Of a stretch of DNA of 64,000 bases, positions 12,730-41,896 are shown in pieces. The stretch lies in contig CAJQUW010008638.1 in NCBI GenBank assembly GCA_907163375.1, forward strand, positions 62,001-126,000. Reading direction: 5' to 3'. The DNA is from Prostheceraeus crozeri. Lineage: Eukaryota > Platyhelminthes > Polycladida > Euryleptidae. How positions within the stretch are numbered: the first letter of the stretch is position 1; each line of letters starts with the position of its first letter. The position numbers and the translations under genes are program-made. The notes beneath the pieces are model-generated. The model was not told the origin of the DNA. It did not search any database and saw only the letters and a list, made by a program, of their open reading frames with translations.

Positions 12730-12862
12730 GCGGTCGTGGCTCAGTTGATAGAGCGTTGTGTCCAGGTAACCTGTGGTCTTAGGTTCAAGTCCTACAAACC
12801 GCACATCATTTGCCAGACAATTTGATCTATCATTGAGCTCATTTCTTTCATTGCTGATTATA
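12730..12862 (+). ncRNA. tRNA-derived SINE
   Basis: The head (12730-12803) has the internal RNA polymerase III promoter of a tRNA gene. Box A is TGGCTCAGTTG at 12737-12747, and box B is GGTTCAAGTCC at 12782-12792. The ends GCGGT...ACCGC can pair like an acceptor stem. The spacing and arms are tRNA-like, but the anticodon region is poor, so it is a SINE rather than a working tRNA. The tail (12824-12859) recurs at 4847-4882. The element ends about 35 bp before the acceptor of the first STAT exon seen here. Confidence 0.65.
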
Positions 12863-25079: not shown

Positions 25080-28000
25080 CAGGCATCCCAGCGATCCCTA
25101 CTTTTCCTACTTTTACCTTCTTTTTAAGGGTCTCCCTTTTTTTCACTATTTTTTTTGCAAAATCCCTACTTTTCACTACTTTCCGGCGAAATCCCTACTT
25201 TTCTATGAAGTTGTGTAATTTGACTTTTATTTGTTTCGTGAGAGTTACCGGATCATATTGTGACTTTTTATCAGTTAATGAAAATTATATATATCAGAAC
25301 TATTTACAGATTCATAATCAAATAATTATCACAGAAATGTATCCTTGTTATCCGTTGTAAGATAATGTGGTAATTCTACATTTAAAAAAATTATCATAAA
25401 AATAACAGCTTTTATATTACAAAAAAGATAGAAAGTAAATATAAGATAGAAAATAGAAAAAATTAAAAAGCCCGTACAAAAATCATTCAATTATGTGTCG
25501 AAGTTTTTTTCATTTAAGTGTCGAACTGTTATATTCATACAATGATTTTAATCTCAATCTCCTCCACAGATAAGGAAAGAATTCATCGCGTAACCATTCA
25601 TAGGAAGAAAGTTTCGTAGAAAACAGCTTCCAGACATGTAGGCTATCATGTCTAACAAGGATCAAGTACAATCGTGTGCAAGTTCATTATAGTGTTGGAA
25701 GACATTAATATGGAGTACATACATAAGGTTGACATTCAATCTTCCAATGTTTTTCATTTACTGACTTTAAAGGAGTTGGATTCCTTATTGCTGTCTGAAG
25801 TTGTCAGATCTCGTCGCTTGAAAAACAGACTATGTTTGAACAAAATAACTTTGAAATTGAAATAGATTTTTCGGAAACTTTTTGCACCATTAAATGAGCA
25901 TTCGAACTCCTTTAAGTGCGAATGTCATACTGATACTGCGATAATGTAGTTTAGTAAAGAACTTTATATTCTGATGTTGTTTTTTTTTCTTTTCATCATG
26001 TACATATAACCATTGTTATTCGAATGAGTTATTGGCTTGATTGCATTCTTTCTGTATTTGTATCTCATAATACATGAAATTTGTCTTAAGAATTTGAATG
26101 GTTATGTAGCAATATTTTATTTTGAATTGCTGTTTTCGAGGTTTTATGAGCCCCAAAATAGTGAATTCGTGCATTGAAAAATTTTCATGCATCATTAAGA
26201 ATCCCTTTCATCAGACTTTCCGAATTTCAGCGCAATATGCCGCATGGTAAGACTAAATTTCAGAGTGCCTGGCTTAACACGAAAGATTCAAATGGGCACT
26301 TGTTGTCATCATGGTGTAAGTCAAACCCCACCGATAATTTCTCAGCATTCTGTACTGTATGCAAAACTGATATATCATGTTCTAATTCAGGAAGAATGCA
26401 GCTATTAAACCATGCAAAGACAGCCAAACACAGAATCGTTGCAAAAGATAAGTTGAATGCTAATCAACAACGAATTATTATCGATTGCGGTTCAGTAGAT
26501 TCTCAAGGATCGAAATATTCATCGCAGCAAAACAAGGAAGTCAGAACAAAATTATCTGGATTTCTTTTGCGACCGTCTGAAAATGAAGAAGTTACTAGAG
26601 CTGAAATAACATGGATTTTAAAGATGTGCTCATCTGACTGGTCTTTCGCCTCTTGTGACGATATTAATGAAGTGTTTCAGATGATGTTTCCTGGTACTAT
26701 CAGTGATAATTTTCAATGCAAAAGCAGCAAAGCATCATATGTTGTATCGGATGGATTAGGACCCTTTTTCCAACGGGAATTAATCGAGGAAATGAAAAAA
26801 TCAGAATCTCTCTTCACGTTGGAATTTGATGAGACAACAACGAAGAAATCAGAGAAGCAAATGGACCTGCTTGTTCGATTCTGGTCTATCTCTCGTGAGG
26901 AAATCGTCGTCCAATATCTAAGCAGCAGATTCTTCGGTCATGCAAAGGCATCAACGGTCACTGACTCGATTATTTCTTTGTTTAAAGAAATAGGTGTTCC
27001 GATCTCCAATTTGTTTTGTTTATCATCAGATGGTCCCAACGTAAATAAATCAATCCGGCAATCTTTGAATAATCACTTGAAATCACTTGGATTACCAGGA
27101 CTGTTAGAATTCGTTCCATGCAACTTGCACGTGGTTCATAACGCTTTCCGTGCTGGATTGAAAGAATACGGGGATGGTGTTGAGAATTTCTGCATTGATA
27201 TGTTTTATTGGTTCCGACAGTCTCCTTGTCAGAGGGAAGATTTTCAGAGCATCTTGTTGGATCTTAATCTTGAAGAAAATTTTTTTATTCAACATGGACA
27301 CACTCGATGGATCACACTTGGTCGATCACTCACAAGAGTTTTGGTGAATTATGACGCCATTAAAGAATATTTTCTGAAGTACATTCCATCGTTAGTTAGA
27401 TGTGGAGATACGTCCTTAGAGTTGCGGAAAAACGACCGTCTGAGACGAATCACTGGAATGCTGCTAGACAATACTTTCCTAGTGAAATTGAACTTCGTTG
27501 CTTCATTAGCAAAAATGTTCGAGTCTTTCCTCGTAACATTTCAAAAGGAAGCCCCTCTAGTCCATGTACTTCACATTGAATGTGTAGAACTCGTGCGCAG
27601 AATTATGACACGATTCGTGAAAAACAGTCTTCTGTCAAATGTCGATGCAATTGCAGACGTTGATGTTTCATTGCCTGCAAATCACGTTCCTTGGGAGGAA
27701 GTAGAAAATGGCAACGTTGAAACTCCTCCTAAAATCGAAATTCAGTGCATGATCAAGTGCTATATTGCAATCACAAAGTATCTGCTGAAACGATTGCCAA
27801 TTCGCAACAGACTCTTGCGAGATGCCTTGGCACTCCATCCTCTACATAGAAAGAAAGAATCCAATACGCACGCTATTAAGAGATTGGTTTTGAATTTTCC
27901 ACAAATCATATCTTCGTCTGACCATGACCTGATTCGTGATGAATACCTTGCATATCAAAACGACGATTTGTCACCTGCTTTGTCTGTATTCGAAGAAAGT

Positions 28001-29359
28001 GGACGTGTCGACCATTTTTGGCGTGATGTTGGGCGATTGAAAAACAGTTGTGGGCTTCCAAAGTATACGAATCTCTATAAGCTTGCTCGAACAGTCCTGA
28101 GTATTCCTCATGGCAATGCGGACGTCGAACGCTCACTTTCAATTAACAAAAATATTCTAACTTCAGAAAGAACCAGGTTGTCTGAGGAAACATTGATTGG
28201 ATTGAGACTAGTGAAAGATGCCGTAAGACGTCATGGCGGTATCTCACGAGTACCGATTACAACTGATCTAATGAAAGCACACCGCAATGCGCATCGCAAA
28301 TATCAGATCCGCAGTGAAGAAGAGAAGGAAAAGGCTGAGAAGCGGAAAACCGAAAGAAGTGACCAAAAGCTAACTGAACAAACTATCAAAGATACGTCGA
28401 CTCAACAAGCTCTCACAAAGACATTTGAATCAATGACATCGAAGGAAAAGTTACTCACCGATAAAGAACAGGAAGTGAAAGACGATTTGAAATTGGCTCA
28501 TAAACTAGTCAATGAAGGCAATGAACGTCTCGCAATGGGAATCAAGAAGAAAGATATGGTAGAGATCGCGTTGGCTCAAACCATACTCGAAAGTGGACGC
28601 AACAAGATTGTATCAGTGCAGAATGCTGCTGAGGTATGTGAAAAGAGAAGAAATAAACTTGATAAGCGTAAAGCAAAGTTTTTTGATAAAACCATGAACA
28701 CCCTACAAAATAAATAGTACATCATCTGTGACTTTAGCCATGTTTGGACAGTTATTAAGCGTTATTTGTTTATGAAAGAGTCAAGGAGAGAATGATGTAT
28801 AAACAGTTTTGCTACATAACTCGTTACAAGATTCGTTCTAAATGAGAGGCCTACAACTTAACATTCCCCGTTGATAAACGGTGACAATAGTCAACTTTTG
28901 CATCATACCAAATTTCGTCACGCTAAATTCAGGGTACCTTCTTATTCGTAAATTCTCTCCTCGTCTCTGATATGTTATGTTATCCACTTTCGAATTGAAA
29001 TTGATGTGATCGAGTTACGATATGGTTACGATTTGTTTTCTTGTTTTTAACAATGTGAAAATATCATGATACAATTGCTCTTACTTCGCATCATGCACTG
29101 GTTTGTACTCATAGTTGTTAGGAGTGGTTTTACACAAGAACTCAGTTTAACAACTATTTGATTATTTAGGGAGAATGTAAGACAGGATCACACATTACAT
29201 TAGCCTTATTTTTCTTCTTTCTTGCTACTTTTTCGAAAAAAATATCCATACTTTTTTACCTACTTTTTCGAAAAATATCTCTACTTTTTTACCTACTTTT
29301 TCGGAAAATTATCCCTACTTGCATCCCTATTTTTTTGTTGAACAGCGCTGAGATGCCTG
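25080..29359 (+). mobile_element. Complete hAT-like DNA transposon in STAT intron 2
   Basis: The left end begins CAGGCATCCCAGCG (25080) and the right end is its inverted copy, CGCTGAGATGCCTG (ending 29359), with one mismatch in 14. TAATAA flanks both ends directly (25074-25079 and 29360-29365), consistent with a 6-bp target-site duplication. Inside each end are repeated CCCTACTTTT-type words (25095-25205; 29220-29330), so the subterminal regions also resemble each other. One long open frame (26174-28717) encodes the transposase. The 4.28-kb unit has no visible disabling mutation in its coding region, which suggests a recent arrival. Most hAT elements make 8-bp duplications, so 6 bp is shorter than usual. 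Confidence 0.8.
26174..28717 (+). CDS. hAT-like transposase with zinc finger, intact
   Basis: This 847-residue frame has no internal stop. A BED-like zinc finger lies near the N-terminus (C60-x2-C63, H80-x5-H86). The RNase-H-like transposase core follows, with a first aspartate in FDETTTKKS (D219) and a second in SSDGPNVNKS (D286). The HTRWITLGRSLTRVL segment lies at about 376-390. The C-terminal hAT dimerisation block is HGNADVERSLSINKNIL, where E652 sits where Hermes has its catalytic glutamate. Residues ~705-847 form an unusually long K/E-rich predicted coiled coil. The second methionine (M22, at 26237, MPHGKTKFQSAW) fits the family better as the start. The protein would cut and paste the surrounding element. 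It has relatives at 8.5-9.6 kb and 45.9-46.7 kb. A domesticated role cannot be excluded, but the flanking TIRs argue for a transposon. Confidence 0.88.
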   Translation: MKNFHASLRIPFIRLSEFQRNMPHGKTKFQSAWLNTKDSNGHLLSSWCKSNPTDNFSAFCTVCKTDISCSNSGRMQLLNHAKTAKHRIVAKDKLNANQQRIIIDCGSVDSQGSKYSSQQNKEVRTKLSGFLLRPSENEEVTRAEITWILKMCSSDWSFASCDDINEVFQMMFPGTISDNFQCKSSKASYVVSDGLGPFFQRELIEEMKKSESLFTLEFDETTTKKSEKQMDLLVRFWSISREEIVVQYLSSRFFGHAKASTVTDSIISLFKEIGVPISNLFCLSSDGPNVNKSIRQSLNNHLKSLGLPGLLEFVPCNLHVVHNAFRAGLKEYGDGVENFCIDMFYWFRQSPCQREDFQSILLDLNLEENFFIQHGHTRWITLGRSLTRVLVNYDAIKEYFLKYIPSLVRCGDTSLELRKNDRLRRITGMLLDNTFLVKLNFVASLAKMFESFLVTFQKEAPLVHVLHIECVELVRRIMTRFVKNSLLSNVDAIADVDVSLPANHVPWEEVENGNVETPPKIEIQCMIKCYIAITKYLLKRLPIRNRLLRDALALHPLHRKKESNTHAIKRLVLNFPQIISSSDHDLIRDEYLAYQNDDLSPALSVFEESGRVDHFWRDVGRLKNSCGLPKYTNLYKLARTVLSIPHGNADVERSLSINKNILTSERTRLSEETLIGLRLVKDAVRRHGGISRVPITTDLMKAHRNAHRKYQIRSEEEKEKAEKRKTERSDQKLTEQTIKDTSTQQALTKTFESMTSKEKLLTDKEQEVKDDLKLAHKLVNEGNERLAMGIKKKDMVEIALAQTILESGRNKIVSVQNAAEVCEKRRNKLDKRKAKFFDKTMNTLQNK

Positions 29360-35412: not shown

Positions 35413-35436
35413 TAATAATAATAATAATAATAATAA
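35413..35436 (+). repeat. (TAA)8 microsatellite, LINE target
   Basis: Eight uninterrupted TAA units lie immediately before the 5' end of the LINE at 35442. Dong-type LINEs are known to insert into TAA repeats, so this is likely the target site. Confidence 0.9.
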
Positions 35437-35446
35437 GCGTAGCGAG

Positions 35447-35500
35447 TGGCACAGTGGTTTAAGTGTCTGCCTGTGGTCTGGATGGCCCAGGTTCGACTCC
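35447..35500 (+). promoter_or_regulatory. tRNA-like Pol III promoter in LINE 5' leader
   Basis: Box A (TGGCACAGTGG, 35447-35457) and a perfect box B (GGTTCGACTCC, 35490-35500) stand 32 bp apart, normal for a tRNA gene. The arms fold only partly like a tRNA, and the acceptor stem is weak, so it is tRNA-derived rather than a tRNA gene. It lies within the first 60 bases of the inferred LINE. Confidence 0.7.
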
Positions 35501-35530
35501 TTGCGCAGTCAACGTTATTAATAAATTTCC

Positions 35531-35576
35531 GGCCGGGTGTTTGGCAAGCACCTGTAATCCAGCTACTTGGAGGTCG
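35531..35576 (+). repeat. 7SL (SRP) RNA-like segment, copy 1
   Basis: GGCCGGGTGTTTGGCAAGC, then CCTGTAATCCAGCTACTTGG and AGGTCG, follows the 5' Alu-domain fold of metazoan 7SL RNA. It has GCCGGG, a GTGGC-like loop, a CCTGTAATCC loop, AGCTAC and a closing GGAGG. The similarity was judged from memory of the 7SL consensus. Only the first ~46-50 nucleotides of the RNA are represented. Confidence 0.6.
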
Positions 35577-35633
35577 ATAACAGTGGATAAAGATATCTAA
35601 TAACTATATTCTAATATCATCTATATCCTTACA

Positions 35634-35683
35634 GCCGACCGGGTGTGTGGCAAACACCTGTAATCCAGCTACGTGGAGGTCGC
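35634..35683 (+). repeat. 7SL (SRP) RNA-like segment, copy 2
   Basis: This second copy starts 103 bp after the first: GCCGACCGGGTGTGTGGC, then AACACCTGTAATCCAGCTAC and GTGGAGGTCGC. The two copies differ at a handful of positions, while the ~57 bp between them is unrelated AT-rich sequence. CGACC and GGTCG at its ends can pair. The LINE start codon follows 134 bp downstream. Confidence 0.6.
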
Positions 35684-35816
35684 AAGTGGAAAGTGTAATT
35701 GGCTGATTATTAACCAGACTGCAGACGCTCGAATCACAATAAGTGCCAGCTCGGGAAGGAGAAGCGGTTTCTTCCTTAATCTCGTCCTTGCCCAGCACCC
35801 ATAGGTTACACAAAAT

Positions 35817-38800
35817 ATGGAGAATTCAAATAATACAAATTCCATACCGGAACAGGCGTCGCCCGGGTTACCAAGGCCTGCGTTGAATGTTGGGGAACCA
35901 GGATGTTCAAGCAGAAGGGCTACTGGAACGCATGATCACCAGCAACGTCATAGAAGGAAGTGGACACATGCCGATAATGACACCGTAATTGTGTGTTACT
36001 ATATGAGTCGACCAAATGAGAGAGGATATCGGAAACGTATGTACGCAATTTGGAAACAGCAATACCCGCAATCGACAATATCCGAGCAAGGATTGCTTAA
36101 CCAGAAACGGTCTATCATGAAGAACAACTTGTTAACAAATATCGAGATACAAAGAATTGCTGGTCGAGTGAATGGAACAACTACAACTATTGAAGATGAC
36201 AGGACAATCGATAATTCAGCTAGTAACGAATCAATACTTGAACTTGCGACAAACCAGACAACTATTGAAACACTTACCGACGAAGAAGAGAGCCTCAAAA
36301 ATAAGATGACGCAATATATGACAACTTATATGAACACAGACAATAGATCCGACATCAAGAAGATACGTATCAATAAGAATACAATCAAGGTGATTGAGAA
36401 AATCAATAAAGTGATAGAACACATACCTACACAAAACATAACGGAGATCAATGCGCTGATTTATTCAGCAGCAAAAGTTACGCAAGAAATTGTTACAGAT
36501 AATGCAAGAACTATACGCATACAACCCTGGAAACAAAGATTGTTGAATAAAATAAATACTCTCAGGAAAGAAACAAATCAAATTAAGTCAGCTATGGACA
36601 ATAACGGAAGACTACCACACCACTTGGTAAGAAAATATGACATGAATAACAGATTCATTGAAGAAGCATATGAAGATGCCAAACAAAGGTTAATTGCGAT
36701 CAGTCATCGATTAAAAAGATACGAAGAAAGAAATGAACAAGTCCGAATAAACAGGTTATTTCGAGAAAATCCGAAGAAAGTATACTCACAGATAAGAGGC
36801 AGAGATAAATCAGATATAAGTGTAATCGAAAATGCGGATGGAATAATGGATTATTGGAAAGACATATGGGAAAATGAAGGACAATATAATACCGAGGCTG
36901 AATGGCTAAAATTAATGGAAAGAAAATACGAAAGTCTCGCTTATCAAGATGACGTAGAGATAACAGAGGAAGATACAAAATTCAAACTTGCAAGTATGGG
37001 AAATTGGAAAGCAGCAGGCCCTGATAAAATACAAGTGTTCTGGATTAAGAAACTGAATAAGTTACATGAAAGACTTGCCAAGTACTACACTGAGTTCCTG
37101 CGGAATCCAAGTATGATTCCAAAATGGATGGTCAATGGTAGAACAGTACTTATAAAGAAAGACGAAGATAAACCTCCAACTCCAGACAATTTCCGGCCAA
37201 TAACATGTCTCCCAACCCTATGGAAATTGTTCACTGGAGTAATAACAAAAAAGATAAACCAACATGTAAAATCACAGAAGATAATACACAGCGAACAAAA
37301 GGGCTGTCGTCCACACTGCAGAGGCACAAAAGAACAACTTGCCATAGACAGAACAATCACCGATGAAAGTAAAAAACGGAAGAAGAACTTGTCAATGGCA
37401 TGGATCGATTATCGCAAGGCTTTCGATTCCATTCCACATTCATGGATCATGAAATGCCTTGACATGTACAAAATCAATAAGTCCATACAAAAAGTGATAA
37501 TAACATCAATGAAACATTGGGAGACGAACATTACACATGGTAAGCAAGTTATTGGAACAATAAAGATCAAAAGAGGAATCTTCCAAGGAGACTCACTCTC
37601 ACCACTGTTGTTCTGCCTTGCAATAAACCCACTGAGTGAGATCTTACATGGAATAGATAAATCGTACGCACTTACAAGAGGAAGAAAAATCAATCATCTG
37701 CTATACATGGACGATTTAAAACTATACGGGAAAACCGAAAACGACATCAACTGCCTCATCAACTCGGTTTAAGATATACAGCGATGATATTAACATGAAG
37801 TTTTGAGTCGGAGTCGAAAAATGTGCGCGACTTATAATCCATCGAGGGAGAGTAATTGAAACAGACGGATTTCAAGCTGAAGGAGCACTAATAAGGGATG
37901 TGACCCAAGATGGATATAAATACTTGGGAATTCCTCAGAGAGAAACCATACTTGATGATGCGGCAAAAGCAAGGGCAACAAAAGAATACAAGAGGAGATT
38001 AAAGAAACTGCTGAAATCGAAGTTGTACGCCAAGAATATGACTGAGGCTATAAATGCATATGCAGTACCCGTAATCAGCTACACTGGAGGAGTGGTGAAA
38101 TGGACAGTGCAAGAACTAAGTGAACTCAACCGAAAGACACGTAAGATACTAAACATCTACGGTGCACTACATCCAAGAGCCGATATCGACCGTCTCTACC
38201 TACCGCGGGATCGGGGAGGTAGGGGGTTCAAAGATCTGCAGGAAGTCATAGAACAAGAAGACAGAAGCCTAACAGAATATGTACAAAACAGAAACGATGA
38301 CCCACTGCTGGCAGTGGTTAAATCGGGCAATTTGTACAGGCAGCGACAAGATACCTTAGAAGATTGGAAGATGAAAGTTGTAGAAGATCGATACCATAAA
38401 TGGAAAGATAAGATAATGCACGGACAATACACAAGACAAAATGCTGGAAATAACATCTAGGCAGGCTTGTTACGGTTGGTTGAAATCAGTCAATTTGAAA
38501 ATTACCACAGAAGCGTTACTAACGGCAGCTCAAGACCAAGCCGTCAATACGAAAGCACATGCAACATACATCCTGAAAACCAGCAATGATGCAAAGTGCA
38601 GAATGTGTAAGTCAGCAGATGAGACAGTGTCCCATATACTCACAGGATGCTCAAAACTGGCATCAAAAGAGTACCTCAATCGCCACAATGAAGTTGCCAG
38701 AATGATCCATAGAGATCTCTGTCTACAGTATGACATCAGCGCATCGACAGAGCCATGGAAACATATGCCGATGCCAGTAGTTGAAACAGACATGGTGAAG

Positions 38801-39174
38801 ATCTTATGGACTTCGAAATAAGAACCGACAAGAACATTTCAGCAAGGAGGCCCGATATAGTGATAGTGGACAAAGAAGAGAAGATGGGATACATAATCGA
38901 TATCGCCGTTCCCGAGGATAGAAACATATGCAATAAAGAGCGAGAGAAAATAGCAAAGTACCAAGACCTGAAAATAGAAGTACAGAAGCTGTGGAAGATT
39001 AAAGCAAAAGTGATACCAGTAGTAGTGGGATCCTTGGGAGCCCATACTGACAACCTAAAGAAGTACCTCAAAGAGATTCCCGGTCGACACCAAGTACCTC
39101 AATTACTTAAGGCTGCCCTGCTCGGTAGTGCCTACATCCTTAGACGCACTCTGGATCTCCCTGAGTCCTGGTAG
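35817..39174 (+). pseudogene. R4/Dong-type LINE ORF (RT + REL endonuclease)
   Basis: One protein, broken into frames 35817-37772, 37900-38460, 38441-38821 and 38806-39174. It has an N-terminal Myb/SANT-like segment (RKWTHADNDTVIVCYYMS) and a basic helical region. The RT domain contains FRPITCLPTLWKL, MAWIDYRKAFDSIPHSW and GIFQGDSLSPLLF, with the catalytic YMDD at residues 630-633. After a one-base frameshift and a TGA (~37772-37830) the thumb resumes (GYKYLGI). A CCHC knuckle (CRMCKSADETVSHILTGC) and a PD-D/E-K restriction-like endonuclease (RPDIVIVD, IIDIAVPED, KYQDLKIE) follow. Further frameshifts lie near 38445 and 38815. Single-ORF layout with a C-terminal REL domain defines the R2/R4/Hero group. 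The R4/Dong assignment rests on the domain order and the TAA target. Confidence 0.85.
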
Positions 39175-39243
39175 GATTCCGAGGTCCTGAGTTACAACCG
39201 ACCATTGTGTGGTCGTGATCAAAAAAAAAAAAAAATAAGCGTA

Positions 39244-41896
39244 TATTTTCTGGAAGGCCTCAATATTGATAATCGTGAGGCAATAACATCATGAATGAAA
39301 GTCAAATTTGTTACAAAGTTATAGAAAAGAAAACTTAACAAAAGTAATGAAAATAAACATGGAAACACGATGCGATAATGTCACTGGGTAAATCCACAGT
39401 TGAACAGGCGAATCATCACCGGAAAAAATGAGTTACTCCTCATAACGGAGCTACAATACGGAGCTATCAATTTTCCCGAGTAAGGTAGCCGTTTCGGAAT
39501 GAGCTGCTGAAGTGGATTGTGATGCGACGGTAGTCAAGCGGAATGAAATTTGGGCACACGCAGCTGCTGGATCCGCAAATAATTTTGTGGCATCTTCGTT
39601 GTATTTGCTCTAAGATGTTGCCTTGTGTAGCACTCAACTGAACAAATAGCGGAGCAGAAAATTCTAGGAGACTTCGTATGTAACTATGTAAATGATCACT
39701 AACTCCGGAACCGAAAGGAAAGGCTTCAATTGCCTTAACGCATACATTCTGCACGCTGCTCTCTTGGCTACATGAAGCGACATGAGCATTCCACTTGTAT
39801 AACTGCTCAAAATGAACACCGAGGATTCTTAAAGTATCGACAGCAGGCACGGTAGGTATTGCAGGTACAGAATAATCGAAAGAGTTGACGCGGCTACTAA
39901 TAATGAACATTTGTTTGCATTTCTCTTGTTTGATAACCATACTATTTTCAGCTGTCCATCTTTTACTTTTGAGAATGCCGAAATCACAGGACTGTTTGAA
40001 GAGTGTCTATCAACTCCGCCAGCGATGATGATATCATCTGCATATTTCAGCAGTAAAGCATTAGAGAAATCAGTTTGATTCAGATCGGCAATGAAGTAGC
40101 CAAATATAAGAGGCCCAATGCTGGATCCCTGTGCAACACCACTAGATACTTTGATGTAATCACTGAACGTCTTGCGCCATCTGACTCTCTGAAATCTTGA
40201 TGAAAGATAGTTCTTCATGAATTTGATTATGAATGGATCAAACTCATCACGAACCATCTTAGCAAGTAGAAGTCTGTGGGAAACTTTATCAAAACCTTTT
40301 GCAAGGTCAACAGTAACAATGTGACACGCACTGATGCTTCTGTCCTGCAGTCTTTCCGTAATGAAATTGTCCAACATCAGCAGAGCACATGTTGATGAGC
40401 ATCCTTTCCTGTATCCAAATTGAGCATCGTCGAATTTGTTCACGAAAGATGGGCGATAACTTTGATTAACTCCTTTTCAAATAGTCTTTCAAGAAGAGGA
40501 AGTAGTGAGATTGGTCGGATGTTCGACAAATCAGCCGGTGAAGTTTTTGGCAGCGGCACAATATCGGCGTTTTTCCAATGCTGGGGCAAATTTGCGGTGA
40601 GCAGACACATGTTGAAAATAATTTTAACAGGTTCACAGAGATAATTAGAAAGTTTCGATAGGAAAATACTTGGTATTTGATCGGAACCACAGGCTGAACG
40701 AGGATTGACACGACACAGTAAATTATGAACATGTTCGGTTGTAAACAAGAAAGGAGCACTAGCCGATAAATTTGAAAGATGTCATATCAGGAGCATCATC
40801 TAGTTGATGCTGACTCAGCTGATTATTTAAATATTGAAGGGTATCATACAGAGGTTGATCAGGAGAACATTGGGACAACCAATCACTTTTCACATTAGCA
40901 TTCGTGACAGTCTTGAAAATATCCAAATTGATCTCGATGACGACATAGATTTAGCCCATTGTTTCTTTGACACAAAAATTGCTTGTCTGACTTTGAATTG
41001 GTAGTGTTTGTAGAGAGTCCAGTCCTTATTGCGGTAGGCAATGTAACGCTTATTGATAAGCACTTTAATGACACCACTGATCCAAGGCTTATCAGAGCTT
41101 GATACTTTTATTGAATTACATGGAATGAGATCCATCACAGAGTACAATGTTTTATAGAAGAAATCACAGGCTTTGTCCAGCGACTCACTCAACATATGGG
41201 AATTCCAATCAATACTTGCCAAATGCCATCGAAGCTTTCTGCAAGTGCGACTCGCGGAGATCCATGATATCTACATATACTGGAGTCTGCGTAATTGAAC
41301 TCTTTGCTTTCAGGAACAAAACGTTGTGGTCTCCTGCACCCAACGGCGGGTAAGTAACTGTATCACAATAATGAGGGGTTAATGATTCTGGGATGAGGAT
41401 AAGATCCAACTTAGCATTGAAACGGGTAGAACAATTGACAACATTTTGAAGGCCAAAATTATGCTCAAAACATGAATGATCAATCAAATTGAAATCACCA
41501 CAGATGATAACGTGATATCCTGGATAATGTGTAAGTAAGTCATCAATAACAGATGTAACGTAAGTGCACTGACTTTGCACTTCCCGACGAGATAGCGTGT
41601 TACCATGCGGAAAATAAACAGTTGTGAGAAGGCATTTGAAATGTCGTTGTGAAATTCTTATAACCAGGAATTCAACTTCAGAATGAGTAGATGAATTGAA
41701 GAGCAGCGTAACATGAATAGGAGGTTTTAACCCAGCAGCACACTCCTCCACCCTTCTTTCCACTATTACGATCTGCTCTGTATATATCGTATCCACATAG
41801 TAATACGGTATGATCCAGGATAGTGTTATTCATACCAAGTCTCTGTAACAGACACAATGTCAGGGGAATGAGAGGTAGCAAGAATTTGAATTTCAT
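39244..41896 (-). pseudogene. CR1-like LINE, ORF2 and 3' region, broken
   Basis: On the minus strand, ORF2 pieces appear in the expected order. The N-terminal endonuclease (41678-41896) has GYDIYRADRNSGKKGGGV. The rest of the APE endonuclease (41209-41796) has CGDFNLIDHS and ends LGAGDHNV. A linker (40890-41222; SSDKPWISGVIKVLI), RT fingers (40440-40748) and the RT palm (39829-40443; VDLAKGFDKVSH, GVAQGSSIGPLIF, KYADD) follow, then the C-terminal tail (39467-39940). At least five frame changes make it dead. About 220 bp of 3' untranslated sequence reaches 39244, where the R4/Dong-type LINE abuts. It differs from the 17.6-kb LINE and belongs to another family of the same superfamily. Confidence 0.87.

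Follow-up and report, generated by a model that had tools for sequence, protein, structure and literature searches.

We wondered why a LINE of Prostheceraeus crozeri should carry sequence resembling small RNAs ahead of its coding frame, and what this sequence might do for the element. A copy of this LINE lies in the window, by which we mean the whole stretch of 64,000 nucleotides that was analysed. A sequence-only reading of the window had claimed a target duplication, followed by box A and box B of a tRNA gene and two 7SL RNA-like segments in front of the ORF; all of these were found where it had placed them, by sequence inspection and by matches to the Rfam model RF00017. Sequence inspection and Rfam place the leader of this copy at 35441-35816 on the forward strand, with a tRNA-like head followed by two 7SL-like modules, each corresponding to about the first ~45 nt of SRP (7SL) RNA. 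The features of the element are:

35432..35441, no strand: target duplication, 5' copy, AATAAGCGTA, closing a TAA repeat
35441..35515, +: tRNA-derived head, start of the leader; the homologous head of copy L071 matches RF00005 (22.2 bits, E 0.023)
35447..35457, +: box A of a putative type-2 Pol III promoter, TGGCACAGTGG; 11/11 positions invariant in six representatives
35490..35500, +: box B of the same putative promoter, GGTTCGACTCC; 9/11 positions invariant in six representatives
35531..35575, +: 7SL module A (Alu 5' domain), from RF00017 and alignment with host 7SL; 39/46 positions invariant over 35531-35576
35576..35636, +: AT-rich linker from module A to module B, with the 3' end CTTACAG; 34/60 positions invariant over 35577-35636
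35637..35681, +: 7SL module B (Alu 5' domain), from RF00017; 36/47 positions invariant over 35637-35683
35684..35816, +: remainder of the leader up to the ATG; 62/133 positions invariant
35817..37772, +: first open ORF piece, reverse transcriptase, 651 aa; PF00078 E 1.9e-25, R2 protein 9nl2 E 4.3e-24
37807..39171, +: rest of the ORF in separate frames (37807-38457, 38417-38818 and 38785-39171), which are open in other copies
39172..39233, +: 3' end and A-tail, from sequence and flank comparison
39234..39243, no strand: target duplication, 3' copy, AATAAGCGTA

The 7SL-like nature of the two modules is supported by Metazoa_SRP (RF00017), which matched at 35532-35613 (39.1 bits, E 8.9e-9) and at 35638-35680 (29.0 bits, E 7.3e-6). 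Both scores are lower than the gathering score of 70 because essentially only the first ~44 of the 299 model positions are matched, and for the same scores a gathering-level Rfam scan of the window returned no SRP match. A full Alu domain, made of 5' and 3' 7SL parts, is absent from the leaders of the window copy and of L071, where RF00017 covers essentially model positions 1-44 of 299. The host encodes at least 26 7SL genes (26 scored of 14,978 candidates; 247-262 bits), whose 5' end aligns with both modules, and for module B the likeness extends to about 62 nt. Chance similarity to 7SL was ruled out by the Rfam E-values together with the exact 16-mer CCTGTAATCCAGCTAC, which occurs 386 times in the 2.05-Gb genome compared with 0 occurrences of the reversed control. 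Among 100 listed of these 386 places, 66 were paired 102-133 nt apart, the spacing expected of two-module leaders, and 34 were single. The host 7SL genes themselves cluster at G000:C3985, C4827 and C4867, several of them about 2.5 kb apart. A COX1 of this genome can be read well with invertebrate mitochondrial code 5; its contig is 100.7 kb long, and the gene may therefore be a nuclear copy.

For the tRNA-derived head, RF00005 gave no match at E<=10 on the window leader and ARAGORN called no tRNA there, while in the sister family the model spans the whole homologous head (L071:107-179), scoring 22.2 bits (E 0.023) where the gathering score is 29. Covariance models thus bear out the SRP segments in the window and the tRNA module in L071. 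Boxes A and B of the window leader lie near the element start and at tRNA spacing, and comparison of 5' flanks showed that the leaders of other copies open with GGCGAGCGAG. The linker between the 7SL modules (35576-35636) closes with TCTAATATCATCTATATCCTTACAG (TCAG in L071 and L072), which may resemble a 3' splice site. Elsewhere in the window, 12730-12803 on the forward strand matches RF00005 at 30.3 bits; it was not called by ARAGORN and has no similarity to the LINE leader.

The element behind this leader sits in a TAA repeat at about 35442-39233 and is bounded by the 10-nt duplication given above. The window copy is defective, its frame breaking at 37772; intact single frames of 1120-1151 aa are present in other copies. 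The ORF piece 38417-38818 carries a zf-RVT motif and 38785-39171 an RPD..D endonuclease-like region; zf-RVT scored 20.6 and 21.3 bits, under the cut-off of 27.5, and the endonuclease region reached no more than 11.5 bits against R2. The L071 ORF matched R2 protein 9nl3 (E 6.2e-35), as expected of an R2-like reverse transcriptase, and PF00078 too. Assignment to the R4/Dong type, as the sequence-only reading had it, is plausible from the R2-like reverse transcriptase and the TAA-rich targets. The window also holds a hAT-type ORF of 847 aa (26174-28717 +) and part of another LINE reverse transcriptase (39829-40443 -); relatives of this reverse transcriptase, whose frames are about 875 aa long, provided controls for the T4 counts below.

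Does the leader belong to the LINE, or did it arrive at this copy by accident? Chimeras of tRNA or 7SL with LINE-1 occur in mammals (PMC13174262, in part), and the leader could likewise stem from a single SINE insertion or from template switching at the LINE 5' end. For the present element we rate such an origin as next to negligible, as the same leader is found in dozens of copies from several families. The genome search gave at least 40 copies of the window-type leader (40 scored of 365 candidates), 39 of which reach its first base, and at least 40 copies of a diverged leader in the sister group (40 scored of 311 candidates). This recurrence refutes a single insertion or chimera, and the expectation that other copies share the leader was borne out. 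A reverse transcriptase match lay 1.2-1.75 kb downstream of 15/40 window-type and 23/40 sister-group leaders and at other distances below 6 kb of 1/40 and 5/40, respectively; for 24/40 and 12/40 no such match was present among 135 listed of 21,787 candidates, which says little. At the first 36 loci (L001-L036), some of which are internal deletions or truncations, element sequence continued past the leader in 35, the match at L033 ending just after it.

The leader also recurs at distance. L071, L072 and L074, from a more distant group, have reverse transcriptases 66-70% identical to that of the window element; their leaders also consist of a tRNA head, here diverged, and two 7SL modules, which bears on the age of the leader. 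The ORF order of L071 and L072 is that of the window element; in L074 a deletion falls in this region, and both L073 and L075 are 5'-truncated. Seven further copies included two, L064 and L066, with a single 7SL module and 106 nt lost, and the L064 element retains an open frame of 1121 aa. Where distinct 5' junctions were compared, 34/42 read GCGAGCG; 19/42 distinct upstream flanks contain at least four TAA-type units within 40 nt and the other flanks are AT-rich. These data show that the leader is passed down within a LINE lineage as part of the element. As to individual insertions, the copy at L068 stands directly behind what we take to be the 3' part of a tRNA-Ser gene. At L021 (G000:C227:109500-119400) three LINE copies stand in head-to-tail order, and each begins at or close to the A/TAA tail of its predecessor. 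A tandem array that includes a piece of the LINE lies at G000:C11661:148604-164813, where nine matches to the end of the leader and the start of the ORF are spaced about 2.0 kb or 4.0 kb apart.

Conservation within the leader is uneven. Over six representatives, box A (11/11 positions invariant) and the 7SL cores (39/46 for module A, 36/47 for module B) are the best-conserved parts, with box B at 9/11, compared with 4/15 and 34/60 in the linkers and 62/133 in the rest. An alignment of 12 copies from four subfamilies (the window, L022, L021b and L023 types; L027 and L031 were used only up to position 1500, beyond which they contain different sequence) showed 96-100% identity in the head and 87-100% in the 7SL stretch, and only 43-82% between subfamilies beyond position 500. 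That the leader is more alike than the body across subfamilies could reflect constraint or an exchange of 5' ends.

The sequence-only reading had further suggested that composite SINEs arise from, or feed, such a LINE. This route is unsupported so far: no free tRNA-7SL SINE family was found among the scored candidates, though a diverged one may exist. The most SINE-like locus was L025, which joins leader and tail in about 0.54 kb between TAA flanks; it was rejected as a SINE family since, among 40 scored of 354 candidates, its junction was spanned by L025 alone. Short leader-plus-tail derivatives at L011, L015, L018 and L036 have junctions that differ from that of L025.

We then considered what the 7SL modules might contribute. 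SRP9/14 grips the Alu 5' domain of 7SL RNA. In ten modules, nine of them picked from 36 distinct strings and the tenth being host 7SL, 98.3% of cells in the Alu 5'-domain pairing held standard pairs, compared with 37-50% when partners were slid. TGTAAT and the loop bases GGC and CAGCTAC were invariant across these ten modules; single damaged copies deviate. Covariation is slight, with one pair changing on both sides and shuffles matching the score in 62/500, and modules folded singly do not clearly beat shuffles (17/200 and 69/200 as good). The 7SL fold is kept, mostly through sequence conservation. For 7SL-derived SINEs, retrotransposition requires binding of the Alu domain to SRP9/14 (PMC7245038, in part), and the preserved fold and loop bases would allow the modules of the LINE to bind SRP9/14 as well. 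A role of the modules as promoter was set aside, as they hold just the first ~45-62 nt of 7SL and box B of human 7SL is at positions 76-86 (PMC7245038, in part). A hairpin near 35754-35775, noticed by eye along with an A-T to G-C change between families, was likewise dropped: the fold of 35738-35800 lacked it and 49/200 shuffles were as good.

A different line of evidence comes from the body of the element. Runs of four T (T4) terminate Pol III transcripts, an argument used in print against Pol III transcription of SVA (PMC2666806, in part). On the sense strand of four families, with one representative each, we found 0 runs of four or more T compared with 12.5 expected from a dinucleotide shuffle (lowest of 500: 5). 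The open frames of seven representatives, two of them closely related to each other, likewise held 0 compared with 14.6 expected from a synonymous-codon shuffle (lowest of 1000: 5); taken element by element, the evidence for a deficit is weak (p 0.012 to 0.227). In L001-L036, whose copies are not independent, the pieces that measure 400 nt or more contained 1 T4 run in 63,813 nt, whereas the window outside the element has 8.74 per kb. Three controls from the same genome, richer in T than the element frames (28-33% vs 18-20%), showed no deficit: 15 vs 14.0 and 24 vs 21.5 expected in two APE-type LINEs and 15 vs 13.8 in the hAT ORF. T4 runs do occur in single copies, namely one each in the window copy, L026 and L028, all with broken frames, one within the 1006-aa open frame of the 5'-truncated L070, and four in L074, which has a deletion. 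In four copies the nearest T4 downstream of the element is 25-163 nt into the 3' flank; the examined 3' flanks of L071, L072 and L015 contain none, and L075 was left out of this comparison.

LINE RNA is in most cases attributed to Pol II, and the RNA of this element could be made by Pol II or by host read-through, the tRNA-7SL leader being a relic or passive and the lack of T runs following from A-rich, T-poor codon bias. The sense strand does hold 35-38% A and about 20% T, and other words are under expectation too: TTT (9-15 vs 18-27 expected, four representatives) as well as AAAA and TTTA (0.64 and 0.12 of expectation, seven representatives, synonymous shuffle). AAAA, TGAG, TTTA and TAGG have z-scores below that of TTTT in four representatives, and a second-order model given the low TTT predicts no more than 0.7-1.5 TTTT for each element, or about 4.6 for the four together. 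Part of the T4 deficit may thus be composition or codon context. Yet TTTT is absent, not merely reduced, in seven representatives, it is the sole 4-mer below 0.2 of expectation where more than 5 are expected (0 vs 15.5, four families), and boxes A and B are preserved across families with otherwise diverged leaders. We regard transcription by Pol II or host read-through, with a passive leader, as rather unlikely.

The lack of T4 runs speaks, independently, for the internal Pol III promoter proposed by the sequence-only reading; transcription by Pol III itself is what we infer from this lack and from boxes A and B. Our preferred reading, to which we give reasonable but by no means firm credence, is that of an R2/R4-type LINE lineage in which a tRNA-derived promoter lets Pol III transcribe a 3.8-kb coding element and in which the 7SL Alu 5' domains might serve as a handle for SRP9/14. 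Low TTT, the lower z-scores of other 4-mers, the AAAA and TTTA deficits and the T-richer controls keep us from rating it higher. TFIIIC would bind boxes A and B of the head, and transcription from this type-2 promoter would begin with the first base of the element; the uniformity of the 5' ends agrees with this. With no T4 terminator to halt it, Pol III could read through the 3.8-kb coding body and stop at a T-run in the 3' flank. The resulting RNA would be both template and mRNA, the LINE enzyme would copy it into TAA-type targets, and every new copy would bring its own promoter. In a more speculative step, the 7SL 5' domains would attach to SRP9/14 and keep the RNA close to ribosomes, in line with the model for Alu. 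A bolder version, which we offer tentatively and consider doubtful, is that Pol III makes a protein-coding gene of more than 3 kb as an uncapped mRNA, that paired SRP Alu 5' domains replace the cap in bringing it to ribosomes, and that selection excludes Pol III terminators from the ~1100-codon frame in several families.

The leader might instead act as RNA only, with tRNA-processing enzymes cutting the tRNA-like fold and releasing the 5' end from a read-through transcript, a task that falls to an HDV-like ribozyme in R4/Dong, and the 7SL part docking on SRP9/14. R4 and Dong release their 5' end by a ribozyme (PMC3774820, in part), and Rfam matched no HDV-type family at E<=10 on the window or on the L071 leader, Rfam possibly not covering R2/R4 ribozymes; the preserved 7SL pairing would also suit such a role. 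However, insertions retain the head at their 5' end, so it was not removed before reverse transcription, and the lack of T4 runs is left unexplained. We consider this account quite improbable.

The prevailing view is that Pol III makes non-coding RNA and that LINEs rely on Pol II or host read-through. Pol III transcription of a coding body, if proved, would be a mechanism of a new category. The division between Pol II and Pol III would be breached by a LINE lineage whose promoter is of SINE type and whose body lacks Pol III terminators. LINE and SINE biology would be united in one element, a 7SL-derived retroelement head would exist apparently outside vertebrates, and the SRP9/14-ribosome model for Alu would become testable in cis. 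Among the open-licence PMC papers that our searches listed, none reported a tRNA-7SL-led or Pol III-transcribed LINE; composite tRNA/7SL SINEs (PMC7245038, in part) and one-off LINE-1 chimeras (PMC13174262, in part) are already known.

How does the element compare with these and other systems? Like R4 and Dong, it has an R2-like reverse transcriptase in one ORF and inserts into TAA repeats, as does Bombyx Dong (PMC3774820, in part). In contrast, their 5' end carries a self-cleaving HDV-like ribozyme (PMC3774820, in part), whereas here a tRNA-7SL-7SL leader takes that position. With SINE1 elements (Alu, B1, hagfish SINE1-1_EBu) it shares a head from 7SL Alu-domain sequence; SINE1 are non-coding, contain 5' and 3' Alu-domain parts and are vertebrate in the part of PMC7245038 used here, whereas our element is a coding LINE with the 5' domain only, twice, behind a tRNA head. 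The composite tRNA/7SL SINEs tree shrew Tu and GarnAlu also fuse tRNA and 7SL in one leader (PMC7245038, in part); they are non-autonomous, without a reverse transcriptase frame, and here such a frame follows the leader. LINE-1 small-RNA chimeras likewise join a LINE with tRNA or 7SL pieces, but they are single insertion events, with a few to 21 loci per new type and mostly antisense tRNA halves (PMC13174262, in part), whereas the leader described here is inherited within a lineage.
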